Part shown: positions 1,805 through 25,232 of the stretch, in pieces
How the letters are laid out: each line of letters opens with the position of its first letter
Position numbering within the stretch: the stretch's first letter is position 1
Source: a virus
Length of the DNA: 25,232 nt
Virus record (IMG/VR): IMGVR_UViG_3300035209_000017
Coordinates: 1-25,232 of that record
Strand: one strand, 5' to 3'
The notes under the pieces: generated by a model
Databases searched by the model: none
What the model was told of the DNA's origin: nothing
Seen by the model: only the letters and a program-made list of their open reading frames with translations
Translations under genes and position numbers: made by a program

Positions 1805-3573
1805 TAGGCAGTTCTCACCCAGATGTAAGTTGTAATTGCTGGTGGGATAATTGCAAAGTCAGATGCGGTTTGACCCGATGTGCCATTGACATTAACCTTC
1901 GCCAATTCATACGTTGCCAGTGGGGTTAGTTCTTCGTCTGGATCTGGTAAACAACCTGTTAGGTTGACTTCACCAGTACCGGATAGTGCTTCCCGCAGGT
2001 ACTCACGATCAGATTCCATTTGTGGAATATGTTCGAGTGTCAGTTGAACTTGACGCGAACCAATTAAGTTACCCGCGATTTTCGCCGGGTTGTTGAATTC
2101 ATCCAATACAGCCGAGTTAACACCAAACAATGGATCTGGCTGACTGGTATTATCCAATTCATCCGTAAAACCAAAAATGGTTCTACCTTTCGCATATCTA
2201 GCCCATGTACCGAAACCCATGTACAGACTTGGGTTGGCTGGGTTATTCGCATTCAAGTAAACCGAACCAACCGGGTAGATCGATTCCAGCAATTGAATTA
2301 CGTTTCCGAAGCGGATATTTGATTCAGTACCAGCTACCGGGACAGCACTTTGAGCAGTCGGAGCAGCCGTGTTTGTGTATCGGATCTTGTTCGAACGGTT
2401 GAAAACGAACGTTGTATCCAAGAAGACTTGTTGCGCTCTTGTTTTGATACCGTCTGGGCTATCCCATTCTAGGATCGAACCAATTTCGTTGTTGTAGTAA
2501 ACGATTGTAACAATGTCACCGTCGTTTAGGTCTGGGCTGATAGTCAGTTTGTTCCAACGACCTAGACCGTCTACACCAAACTTGTAATCCTCGTTAGCTG
2601 CACCGTTAAGCATTGCTTTACCGGCTTCAACCAACAGAGTACCGTTAACCATGATTTCACATGCAGCCGGGTTGATTTCTTCGTCTTCTGGACAACCAAA
2701 GTCTGTCAGGCTATATGCACCACCAGCTTTGATTCGGGTATTCTGACCAGCAACCGAAGCAGCCGGGTTACCCGGATCTAGCATCTGGCAATCATATCGA
2801 ACATACGATACTGGCGAACTTGCAACACCCTTGCTGTAACTGATTACAGTAATCGTATCACCATTGACAACGTATGGAACGTAGATATCAACACCATTCA
2901 AACGAGCGATTGCACCAGCAGTACCATACGAACCGTAGTCAGTGTTTACTAAGGTCGAATCATATGTCAGCAACGAACCGTTACGATACACTTGCACCGC
3001 AGCGGTGTTATATCCATTGGTGCTGATATTGGTGAACAACCCATACTGATATGGGCCACCGGTTACAACACGGTAAGATTGAACAACAACACCAGTACCC
3101 GGAGCTTGTGGGACCGAATCCAGTTTCATGTTGTTGATATAACGCCATGTCGCCGGGGAGGTATACACGAACGTCAAGTCCATGAAATCCGTACCGAAGG
3201 TAACCGGGTTGGTGGAACCACCAATCGAGTCGCCCGACATTGGGTGAATAATTACGTTGTTGGTTGCCCACGATGCGTGTACGTCGCGAAGTTTGATAAC
3301 GCGGCCATATTCAGCGGGGGAACCTTTTGGAAGCGTAATGGACACCACACCACTCAAGGTATTGATGTTATACGCTTCGCCTAAGTCTGGGTGAAGGGTT
3401 GAACCATTCGACCAAGACCATGTTTTAAACGCACCGGCTGGGTGGAACTCTGTTCCGTCCCCCAGAGCGGCGTATGCTTCGTCGAAGTTCGACTTGATTT
3501 TTAGACCACCTTGGCGAATGTAATCGCCAGTGGAATCATCAACAGCCGAACCTAAGATAATGTCTTGTTTCAT
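1804..3573 (-). CDS. 10: Baseplate wedge gp10 (tail pin)
   Basis: gp10 trimers form the tail pins at the wedge periphery and bind gp7, gp9, gp11 and gp12. The protein has 589 residues (T4: 602). The N-terminus MKQDIILGSAVDDSTGDY is nearly the T4 opening, followed by the GGxKIxxNFDExYxxLGDG motif shared with gp9 and then the TLPKG and RDVxAxW motifs near residues 80-105. The C-terminal 150 residues carry the IYPVGSVYLNANNPANPS..MGFGTW motif, typical of T4 gp10 and of phage collar-type domains, and end in TTYIWVRTA, close to the T4 end. A GTAGG ribosome-binding site precedes the ATG, and the stop overlaps gp11. Identification is very secure. Confidence 0.95.
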   Translation of the reverse strand: MKQDIILGSAVDDSTGDYIRQGGLKIKSNFDEAYAALGDGTEFHPAGAFKTWSWSNGSTLHPDLGEAYNINTLSGVVSITLPKGSPAEYGRVIKLRDVHASWATNNVIIHPMSGDSIGGSTNPVTFGTDFMDLTFVYTSPATWRYINNMKLDSVPQAPGTGVVVQSYRVVTGGPYQYGLFTNISTNGYNTAAVQVYRNGSLLTYDSTLVNTDYGSYGTAGAIARLNGVDIYVPYVVNGDTITVISYSKGVASSPVSYVRYDCQMLDPGNPAASVAGQNTRIKAGGAYSLTDFGCPEDEEINPAACEIMVNGTLLVEAGKAMLNGAANEDYKFGVDGLGRWNKLTISPDLNDGDIVTIVYYNNEIGSILEWDSPDGIKTRAQQVFLDTTFVFNRSNKIRYTNTAAPTAQSAVPVAGTESNIRFGNVIQLLESIYPVGSVYLNANNPANPSLYMGFGTWARYAKGRTIFGFTDELDNTSQPDPLFGVNSAVLDEFNNPAKIAGNLIGSRQVQLTLEHIPQMESDREYLREALSGTGEVNLTGCLPDPDEELTPLATYELAKVNVNGTSGQTASDFAIIPPAITTYIWVRTA

Positions 3574-21573: not shown

Positions 21574-22377
21574 ATGGGCAAGCTTGCCAGCTTAGCATTG
21601 GATTCACTTCCTACATTCAAATGTTTAGTTCCAAGCCTAGGGAAGACCGTCACCATGCGGTCTTTCGTAGTTAAAGAACAGAAACTATTGCTAATTGCAA
21701 AGCAATCCGAAAGTGACAAACTTGAGGGTGTTGTAAACGCGGTTAGCCAATTGATCCAAAACTGTGTGACCATCGGTGACATCAACGTCAGCGAACTTCC
21801 TAGTTTTGACATCGAATATATGTTTGTGCAGCTTTACATGCACTCTACCGGTGCATCACTAAACAAAACCTTCTATCTGTGCAAGAACCCTGTTCTAGAT
21901 GCAGAAGGCAAACCGACATTCAACGAAGCAAATGAAGAAATCACTTGCGATCAGGCGAATGGTGTAGTTGTTAACCTGAAAGAAGCCAAAGTTGCTACCA
22001 GCGAAATTCAAACCGGCATCATCGAGGTTAAATCCCAGACTATCGACCGACTGATTTTCAAGTATCCAAACTTTGAACAAATCACCCGTCACGATATCGC
22101 GATTGCAGATGAAGACGTTCAAACGACCTTGACCGTTTATGCTGAATGTATGACGTATGTTTACAAGGCCGATGATACTGTATTGAAGTTTGGCGAAGAC
22201 TATGAAACGGAAGACGCTGCCGAAATGCTTGAATTGCTTTCGAAGCCGATCTTTGATCAGGTTATGGGGTTCTTCATGAACATTCCAGCCATCACAGGTC
22301 ATTCCGACTTTACATGCCGTAAGTGTGGACACAACGCAAAAATCGAGTTGCGGGGTCTAAACGATTTTTTCTCGTAA
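21574..22377 (+). CDS. 26: Baseplate hub assembly protein gp26-like
   Basis: In T4, gp26 is needed to assemble the baseplate hub. This 267-residue protein resembles the gp26-type proteins of marine T4-like phages, with an opening beta strand, TVTMRSFVVKEQKLLLIAKQSES near residues 25-47, LPSFDIEYMFVQLYMHS near residue 73 and a final CxxC segment ending in RGLNDFF. T4 gp26 is shorter (208). The stop comes two codons after the heptamer T_TTT_TTC (22365-22371), and a -1 slip there continues into the gp51-like frame. The gene directly precedes the tape measure, exactly where frameshifted tail assembly chaperones sit in lambda- and P2-like phages. The start ATG has a weak AAGAG ribosome-binding site. 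Confidence 0.8.
   Translation: MGKLASLALDSLPTFKCLVPSLGKTVTMRSFVVKEQKLLLIAKQSESDKLEGVVNAVSQLIQNCVTIGDINVSELPSFDIEYMFVQLYMHSTGASLNKTFYLCKNPVLDAEGKPTFNEANEEITCDQANGVVVNLKEAKVATSEIQTGIIEVKSQTIDRLIFKYPNFEQITRHDIAIADEDVQTTLTVYAECMTYVYKADDTVLKFGEDYETEDAAEMLELLSKPIFDQVMGFFMNIPAITGHSDFTCRKCGHNAKIELRGLNDFFS
22365..22371 (+). promoter_or_regulatory. Probable -1 programmed frameshift site
   Basis: The heptamer T TTT TTC, in the zero frame of gp26, is a canonical X_XXY_YYZ slippery site. The zero-frame stop follows at 22375-22377. The -1 frame is open to 22562 and encodes the gp51-like segment. A small hairpin (22384-22399, six pairs with one bulged G and a 3-base loop) starts 12 bases later and could act as a weak stimulator. 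Confidence 0.7.
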
Positions 22378-22406: not shown

Positions 22407-22562
22407 ATGAAAACCAACTTTAGCCTGCAAAAATACCACAACTATTCTCTGACCGAACTAGAAGCAATGATGCCTTGGGAAAGAAAGATTCTAATTACCC
22501 AAGTTACAATGTGGCTGGAAGAAGAAAAGAGAAAACTGGAAAGAAAGAAACATGGCGGATAA
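22407..22562 (+). CDS. 51: gp51-like small hub assembly protein
   Basis: Read from its own ATG at 22407, this is a 51-residue helical protein (NFSLQKYHNYSLTELEAMMPWER, then a charged tail). The pattern resembles short proteins found after gp26 in other T4-like phages and usually called gp51 or baseplate hub assembly. T4 gp51 itself is far longer (249), so the symbol is tentative. The same frame is open upstream to 22323, inside gp26, so the segment is probably also made as a C-terminal extension of gp26 by -1 frameshifting (about 64 extra residues). The ribosome-binding site before the ATG is only GGTAG. The end overlaps the tape measure start by 11 bases. Confidence 0.65.
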   Translation: MKTNFSLQKYHNYSLTELEAMMPWERKILITQVTMWLEEEKRKLERKKHGG

Positions 22563-24297: not shown

Positions 24298-24305
24298 GGT
24301 GAATG

Positions 24306-24827
24306 ATGACAACTCGCTCTAGCATGATTCAGAACACCATGTCAAGCACAAACCACAAATTTGTGCTTCACAAGGCCAACACAAAAATATTTAACTGGCA
24401 AGTCCAAAAATTCGATGTGCCCGATATAAATATCAGTACCGCCAAGGCGACATCGAGCCCGAAAGTGGGTTCGTGGGAAATTGCTGGTACTGCTATCAGT
24501 TACGATAGACTCGTAGTACAATTCCTTTTGGATGAAGACCTTGAGGCGTGGATTGAGATTAAGGAATGGATCAAAGAAATCGTTGCTCCCTACGACAATC
24601 AACCCACGAACCTATACGGTCAGGCCGAAAGCACGGCAGCGATTCACATCATGACGAACAACCATAGCCCTACTGGGAAGGTGTTCACGTTCAACAGGCT
24701 GTACCCTGTACGCCTGAAAGGCCCATCATATGATGTAACTGTCACAGACCCCACACCGTTGACGTGTGAGGTGGTGTTCGCCTACGATACCTTCGATCTT
24801 GAAATCGCGGTAGGTTCTGCAATCTAA
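24306..24827 (+). CDS. 28: Hub protein gp28-like (tube-fold)
   Basis: This 173-residue protein has the size of T4 gp28 (177), a distal hub subunit, and follows gp29 in the hub-assembly unit. Its order of features is an N-terminal NHKFVLHKANTKIFNWQVQ segment, DVPDINISTAKA, a ISYDRLVVQFLLDEDLEAWIEI helix, a strand with HIMTNNHSPTGKVFTF and a final LTCEVVFAYDTFDLEI strand. This is the tail-tube fold pattern seen in small virion proteins of T4-like phages. I therefore trust the hub/tube class more than the gp28 name. Two ATG codons stand in a row; the second (24306) is better spaced from GAGGTGA. A perfect TATAAATA occurs inside it at 24425-24432. Confidence 0.6.
   Translation: MTTRSSMIQNTMSSTNHKFVLHKANTKIFNWQVQKFDVPDINISTAKATSSPKVGSWEIAGTAISYDRLVVQFLLDEDLEAWIEIKEWIKEIVAPYDNQPTNLYGQAESTAAIHIMTNNHSPTGKVFTFNRLYPVRLKGPSYDVTVTDPTPLTCEVVFAYDTFDLEIAVGSAI
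24425..24432 (+). promoter_or_regulatory. Late promoter motif inside gp28-like gene
   Basis: The plus strand reads TATAAATA exactly, in frame as part of PDINIST codons. It points to the gene-free region 24828-25232, about 400 bases ahead. It may drive the candidate RNA or genes beyond the window, or be a chance match. Confidence 0.3.
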
Positions 24828-24831
24828 ATTT

Positions 24832-24889
24832 ATCAATTCTGTTTAGAAATGGGTCAGGTTCGTGGTATAACTGACCCATATGAATTGAT
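24832..24889 (+). other. Two-part hairpin after gp28-like gene
   Basis: An outer 8-bp perfect stem (24832-24839 with 24882-24889) encloses an inner 9-bp perfect stem (24849-24857 with 24871-24879, ATGGGTCAG/CTGACCCAT) with a 13-base loop. It begins 4 bases after the stop. No T tract follows, so it is not a standard terminator. It could protect the mRNA 3' end or begin the structured RNA that follows. Confidence 0.7.
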
Positions 24890-25232
24890 TCCCTTTCGAG
24901 GGACGTGTCCGGGGCGGTAACCCGGTTCACGTACTACCGACCACAAATGACTAAAATTACCCTTTACCGGGCAGTCCATCCACTTTCGACCTGTAGTGAA
25001 TGCAAACTGTAGAAAAACACGGCAACAGCGGGATGTGTGATACCGCTGACAATTCCTGCATCGAAGTCCAAGAGGCGATTATTAAGCGCTGGTTGTGGAT
25101 GATGCAAGCTACTGCTGTGTAAAAGGTCATTCCGATAAAATTGGAGTTGGGTGATCATCAGCCTCTAGCTGGAAGCCTAAACAATTTCATTCTCCTTTAG
25201 GATGACGGCTCTGTGAAACAGATACAACCGTC
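24890..25232 (+). ncRNA. Candidate large structured non-coding RNA (partial)
   Basis: No credible gene lies here, but the plus strand folds by eye into consecutive helices. These are: 24890-24903 (5 bp, TTCG loop); 24903-24932 (5+5 bp); 25026-25048 (6 bp, 11-base loop); 25057-25106 (6+5 bp around a GAA bulge); 25107-25170 (5+4+5+6 bp nested, AAA loop); 25176-25201 (6 bp); 25204-25232 (5+5 bp, GAA loop). The arm ending at 25106 directly abuts the next, so the two could stack. A 6-bp loop pairing, 24915-24920 with 24964-24969, could form a pseudoknot. The strand is assumed from the upstream genes and the G-U pairs. The RNA probably continues past the window. I cannot assign a known class. Confidence 0.5.

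Follow-up and report, generated by a model that had tools for sequence, protein, structure and literature searches.

Organization of the right end of the contig

The window, by which we mean the whole 25,232-nt stretch of viral DNA analysed here, ends on its right side with genes for a gp26-like protein, a gp51-like protein, a 581-aa protein and a gp3-like protein, in that order, followed by 405 nt that are free of genes. The features discussed below are as follows:

21574..22377, + strand, gp26-like baseplate hub gene (phrog_150, E 1.7e-40)
22410..22562, + strand, gp51-like baseplate hub assembly catalyst gene (phrog_634, E 6e-16)
24303..24827, + strand, gp3-like tail tube/completion protein gene, preceding the RNA (phrog_45, E 1.9e-23)
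24840..24871, + strand, putative dedicated promoter recognized by inspection: TGTTTA (24840-24845) and the extended -10 element TGGTATAAC (24863-24871)
24878..25197, + strand, branch-specific 5ʹ domain, holding the helices of the initial annotation; conserved in L002-L005
25057..25106, + strand, long arm of the 5ʹ domain (TGCATC...GATGCA); one pair changed on both sides among five sequences
25107..25170, + strand, 20-pair hairpin of the initial annotation; pairs can be drawn
25198..25232, + strand, P4, hallmark of the core, reaching the contig end; matched by covariance model R1

The initial annotation had called the segment behind the hub genes gene-free, and our comparison agrees: no gene lies in 24828-25232, and no conserved reading frame runs through the region among the relatives, whose frames are discordant because of 1-nt indels and shifting stops. 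Two short ORFs (24905-25012 and 25000-25122) were considered as genes and discarded, since indels in the relatives break both frames, and Aragorn detects neither tRNA nor tmRNA in the gene-free region. The segment 24828-25232 carries the 5ʹ part of a non-coding phage RNA, roughly 600 nt long, that is cut by the contig end. In the relatives this RNA locus is flanked by the gp3-like tail gene before it and by a dNMP kinase gene after it. The contig stops at the exact end of stem P4 (25232), so that the greater part of the conserved core is not contained in the window.

The P4 element

The outer stem of P4 pairs 25204-25208 with 25228-25232 (GACGG/CCGTC), and its inner helix pairs TGT (25212-25214) with ACA (25224-25226) around the loop GAAACAGAT. 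The stem covaries, appearing as GACGG/CCGTC, GACAG/CTGTC or GGTAG/CTACC, and the inner helix is found in other loci as UGU/ACA, CGU/ACG or UGC/GCA. A CUGU/ACAG hairpin within P4, assumed from its invariance in the first set of sequences, was abandoned, because loci found through the pseudoknot carry CUGUGAAAAAG, which leaves UGU/ACA as the inner helix. A 23-mer taken from the last bases of the type A region (see below) matched 15 contigs, mostly otherwise unrelated, and the 17-mer CTGTGAAACAGATACAA matched at least 119 contigs of IMG/VR, in nearly all of which it lies within a stem whose two strands change together. Most matches to a GAACAGTATGACCCTC pattern (L010-L012, L014, L015 and L017) lie in other sequence and were rejected as chance matches.

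The conserved core and its covariation

An alignment of diverse loci gives the core in the order P4, P5, UUCCG, PK1, P7, PK2, a small hairpin, AAU and the 3ʹ strand of P7; two direct repeats of 7-8 nt follow, one on each side of another hairpin. P5 is a stem-loop that forms in most loci despite differing sequence. PK1 crosses both P7 and PK2 to give an interlocked double pseudoknot with the strand order PK1-5ʹ, P7-5ʹ, PK2-5ʹ, PK1-3ʹ, PK2-3ʹ, hairpin, P7-3ʹ. Strong covariation is seen in all three core helices (PK1, P7 and PK2), and P7 came from an unbiased mutual-information scan, not from a pre-drawn structure. In the main group 97.4% of the core cells are paired, 71 of them are double-change cells and the covariation score is 0.434, as against 0.138 for shuffled and at most 0.087 for slid alignments; PK1 and P7 together reach 98.0% paired cells and a score of 0.828 (0.312 shuffled). 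Covariation, which the initial annotation had named as a check on its candidate RNA, is strong in the core across distant phages.

Independent evidence comes from R1, a covariance model for which 23 main-group sequences were used and from which the window and its near relatives were left out. R1 matches the window at 25198-25232 (39.9 bits, E 4.7e-7 to 1.6e-6) in a 3ʹ-truncated alignment, and L002-L005 over the full model length (47.9-48.8 bits, E 2-3e-8). Held-out loci are recovered at E 1e-16 to 1e-24 (L018, L020, L026, L028, L029, L032, L036, L045, L092 and L128) or about 1e-10 (L019 and L060). The PK1/P7/PK2 double pseudoknot is also present 3ʹ of P5 at the matching place in L002-L005 (L003 aligned). 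A pattern describing the pseudoknot only was found in at least 120 IMG/VR loci, of which 97 were new and had sufficient flanking sequence. The exact P4 17-mer is missing from all 97, yet in 95 the sequence most similar to P4 is located 76-90 nt upstream, and 88 of these positions fall into a single 5-nt bin; roughly half of the matches are close (1-4 mismatches of 21) and the rest weak. By the P4 and pseudoknot patterns, which are unrelated to each other, more than 200 IMG/VR loci contain the core. Neither the P4 20-mer nor the pseudoknot pattern occurs in any of 84,980 bacterial and archaeal genomes (GTDB), indicating that the element is viral. We have hardly any doubt that the core represents a genuine conserved RNA structure, the first part of which is contained in the window. 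The initial annotation had offered helices picked by eye as its main evidence and had missed the element that proved decisive, 25198-25232.

The branch-specific 5ʹ domain and the putative promoter

By comparison, the RNA consists of a conserved 3ʹ core and a branch-specific 5ʹ domain; compensatory changes have preserved the core among very distant phages, whereas the genes around it differ. Other branches have different folds at the position of the 5ʹ domain, for example RF01718 in L020 and L029. In the window, double-sided change affects only 2 of the 106 predicted pairs of this domain, whose internal helices are putative. The hairpin at 25107-25170, presented earlier as the strongest helix, can indeed be drawn with 20 pairs, but its energy is ordinary (z -1.46, 12 of 200 shuffles as good), and its pairs are invariant in the relatives, so that covariation speaks neither for nor against it. 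In five sequences the adjoining arm at 25057-25106 has one pair changed on both sides, a few changed consistently on one side only, and none broken.

The folding energy of 24890-25232 is ordinary as well (-100.4 against -93.4 kcal/mol for shuffled sequence, z -1.31, 14 of 100 shuffles as good); being near that of shuffled sequence it is uninformative as evidence, and alone it would have meant dismissal of the finding. It is what an unconstrained spacer with chance helices would give, a reading that we consider barely credible, since the covariation and the independent model matches refute it for the core, although single helices of the 5ʹ domain may still be chance.

From its sequence, the putative promoter predicts an RNA start near 24878. 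The TGGTATAAC element is common to all five relatives in the alignment, TGTTTA-N19/20-TAnAnT precedes the RNA in L006-L009 and also precedes the dNMP kinase gene, and TGnTATAAT stands directly before the RNA in most PBECO4-type phages. No general sigma-70 enrichment was found upstream of the main-group RNAs, many of which lie close behind a resolvase gene and, given this closeness, could be co-transcribed with it. A palindrome at 24852-24880 of the window (ATGGGTCAG...CTGACCCAT) overlaps the putative -10 element, is largely retained in the relatives and could be an operator.

Type A and type B relatives

Six IMG/VR contigs share the gp3-like gene, as do the cultured Pseudomonas phages Milchi and Astolliot, and about 690-850 nt without an obvious gene separate it from the dNMP kinase gene in L003, L004, L006, L007, Milchi and Astolliot. 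Type A (L002-L005) aligns with the window across the whole region, at 95% mean column identity over five phages. Type B (Milchi, Astolliot, L006 and L007) has the position in common with the window and little of the sequence, and its region may be a strongly diverged member. R1 gives one weak match here, of 8.6 bits, in L006 only, and model R2 does not find the core in Milchi, Astolliot, L006 or L007; type B may belong to the family on the basis of its position and the L006 match. In L006-L009, of type B, a region that resembles an RNA, is conserved and contains AGGATGGTG...CACC and GAACAGTATGACCCTC is seen at the matching locus. When the window type and L040 were compared with cultured phages by blastn, no match was obtained.

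Cultured jumbo phages

The closest cultured homologues of gp26 belong to jumbo phages. PBECO4 and GAP32 have about 800 nt of unannotated sequence between the gp51 position and the endonuclease VII gene, and in PBECO4 the RNA region corresponds to L142 7043-7880 on the minus strand. This PBECO4 stretch is found in 41 phage records (30 of them over at least 80% of its length) whose hosts are Escherichia, Salmonella, Klebsiella, Erwinia, Serratia, Cronobacter, Pectobacterium and Xanthomonas, with 60-80% identity outside the PBECO4 group. PK1, P7, PK2 and the hairpin occur in the PBECO4 type in matching order and spacing, and the core architecture is present in about 30-40 cultured jumbo phages of the PBECO4, 121Q, GAP32 and RaK2 types. 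Within the enterobacterial jumbo phages 100% of the cells are paired, 18 are double-change cells and none is broken (score 0.366, 0.180 shuffled). PK1 and PK2 are kept in a joint alignment of the main group, the PBECO4 type and type A, with 94.9% paired cells and a score of 0.599 against 0.272. R1 does not match the PBECO4-type jumbo phages, and P4 differs between these types, so that the kinship rests on the core architecture and the position near gp51 and not on a sequence score.

Larger gaps, of about 1-1.5 kb and with hairpins, lie at the equivalent place near gp26 and a Holliday-junction resolvase gene in PA5oct (L139 7537-9051), where only small hypothetical ORFs occur, and in Phosso (L138 8229-9244); these gaps may hold diverged copies. 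R1 and R2 find no core in PA5oct, Phosso or Atu_ph07.

Genomic neighbours

The RNA lies behind a resolvase gene in the main group, with gp51 and gp26 convergent to it, and beside a dNMP kinase gene in types A and B. A DNA methyltransferase gene stands one gene further on in RaK2 and XaC1, and the neighbour encodes an ADP-ribosylglycohydrolase in XbC2 and Kaldavass. A gp26 homologue is likewise found near the RNA in other branches.

A cis element of the neighbouring genes, whether a leader, a 3ʹ-UTR structure or an array of terminators, would accord with the place of the window type before the dNMP kinase gene, with the many jumbo-phage copies that face gp51/gp26 and with the terminator-like hairpins that come after the RNA. 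However, neighbours and orientation vary between branches while the core persists, the RNA is much larger than a terminator, and in Milchi and L006 the dNMP kinase gene appears to have its own promoter downstream of the RNA; we therefore regard a cis element as quite improbable.

A GIY-YIG protein (phrog_447, labelled NAD synthetase and also matching homing endonuclease families) is encoded upstream in L041, L044, L020, L040 and L042, in the slot that a RusA-like resolvase or endonuclease VII occupies elsewhere, and it is possibly a replacement of the Holliday-junction resolvase. A homing endonuclease beside an intron was considered and rejected, since the neighbouring gene encodes a nuclease, RusA-like or GIY-YIG, whose syntenic place is fixed. 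The flanking genes appear intact, and no interrupted gene was seen.

Comparison with known RNA families

The window has no Rfam match at the gathering score, and its RNA region has none up to E 10. No Rfam family matches the cores at the gathering score (for L041 none even at E 10), and the OLE model gives no match. As the initial annotation had supposed, the RNA is not assignable to GOLLD or ROOL, whose covariance models match neither the window nor the tested relatives. One family, RF01718 (Polynucleobacter-1), is matched only in six freshwater-type phage loci (L020, at 2867-3008, L023, L026, L028, L029 and L032), where it sits about 25-40 nt before P4; it has no match in the window type, the tested main groups or the enterobacterial types. 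RF01718 was described as a 141-nt motif of Burkholderiales and of fresh water and estuary samples (PMC2864571). It is in fact the 5ʹ domain that one branch of the phage RNA (that of L020) carries; Polynucleobacter-1 comprises this 141-nt piece only, whereas the RNA described here is larger and includes the core. An orphan Rfam family is thereby explained as part of a phage RNA.

GOLLD is a large phage RNA of unknown function with a conserved 3ʹ region, a variable 5ʹ region and pseudoknots, and ROOL is a large phage RNA with several pseudoknots that often lies near tRNA islands (PMC12286853). The present RNA resembles GOLLD in being large and phage-encoded, in its pseudoknots and in its conserved 3ʹ and variable 5ʹ plan, one core being combined with different 5ʹ domains in the window, L020 and PBECO4 types; it resembles ROOL in its size and its several pseudoknots. 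It differs from GOLLD in occurring in T4-like and jumbo phages, with another core, no match in bacterial genomes and no model match, and from ROOL in matching no model and in having its variable part at the 5ʹ end, as opposed to an internal linker. On the strength of the shared plan, above all that of GOLLD (PMC12286853), one might picture an ornate RNA of the GOLLD/ROOL kind, many copies of which build a cage or ring in which the variable 5ʹ region is specially placed. This is unlikely in our judgement: the GOLLD, ROOL and OLE models do not match, self-complementary loops are not evident, the twin repeats are not palindromic, and most main-group loci scanned have no tRNA. A tRNA-Met lies about 2.5 kb downstream in L003/L025, and eight other loci have no tRNA.

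HDV-like ribozymes contain a nested double pseudoknot, the strand order of which is similar to that found here, and this likeness, together with the adjoining GIY-YIG proteins, would suit a self-cleaving RNA of HDV type or a self-splicing intron with a homing endonuclease. The RNA has no P3 hairpin, no conserved catalytic C (the joint before the 3ʹ strand of P7 is AAU, with no invariant C) and no Rfam match to a ribozyme or to a group I or II intron; the nucleases, RusA-like or GIY-YIG, stand at a fixed place, and no gene is interrupted. A self-cleaving or self-splicing RNA is accordingly very improbable.

The twin direct repeats

Twin 7-nt direct repeats flank the last hairpin. They read AGATGAT, GGATGAT, ACATGAT, GAATAAT, GGATAAT and others in the main group, and CGTCAAG, CGTCAG or CTTCAAG in the PBECO4 type; in the window type they are matched only loosely (GACGAATAG and ACGTCAATAC in L003, by eye). 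The two copies within each RNA are 97% identical, as against 71% when shuffled (0/2000), and they agree again in a second, independent set of loci. The repeats cannot pair with each other and change in step, and no complement was found at a consistent place in or near the RNA. This co-change without an internal complementary partner suggests that the repeats are a binding site in duplicate, recognized by a phage-specific partner; we put this mechanism forward tentatively. A terminator-like hairpin with T6 stands between the repeats in the PBECO4 type (L142; L140 and L143-L153), so that the second repeat may fall outside the transcript there, which does not fit simply with the binding-site reading.

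The same two identical short sites around a hairpin, co-changing between phages and lacking an internal partner, would also suit a regulatory RNA that acts in trans through base-pairing of its repeats with a transcript of the phage or the host. We think this rather doubtful, since antisense RNAs do not usually contain a double pseudoknot as elaborate as this one and the repeats differ among phages of related enterobacterial hosts.

Proposed nature of the RNA

It is proposed that the element is most probably a stand-alone, trans-acting structured RNA confined to viruses. It would be made from its own promoter during infection and would work in trans, as a folded RNA or an RNA-protein particle. 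The double pseudoknot would provide a rigid body, the exchangeable 5ʹ domain may be a module specific to the phage or its host, and the twin repeats would be two copies of one site for a phage-specific partner, either protein or nucleic acid.

The suggestion in the initial annotation of a new phage RNA class gains support from the covariation, the lack of a conserved frame and the absence of an Rfam match for the window type. We lean towards a categorically new class that occurs in large T4-like phages worldwide and in no cellular genomes. Such an RNA, alone or together with protein, would be a machine in which a double pseudoknot forms the rigid body, the 5ʹ domain can be exchanged and one recognition site is present as two co-evolving copies. 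We rank the RNA as categorically new at the level of class; if all large cryptic phage RNAs are lumped together, it is one more of them. The literature searched, which excludes subscription papers and preprints, holds no prior description of it. We know of no described RNA class with two copies of one co-evolving recognition site and, to our knowledge, widespread structured RNA classes of this size are rare finds, mostly without a tractable host. The identical co-evolving repeats offer a handle on the partner of the RNA.

The RNA is unannotated, or over-annotated with tiny ORFs, in sequenced E. coli phages such as Sharanji, which grows on K-12 MG1655, and its presence in phages of culturable E. 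coli makes its expression, structure and role testable. Small hypothetical proteins are annotated within the RNA region in fENko-Kae01 (L144 1166-1318), Hallingskeid (L145 859-1363) and Milchi (L008 4520-5174), and these are probably over-annotation.
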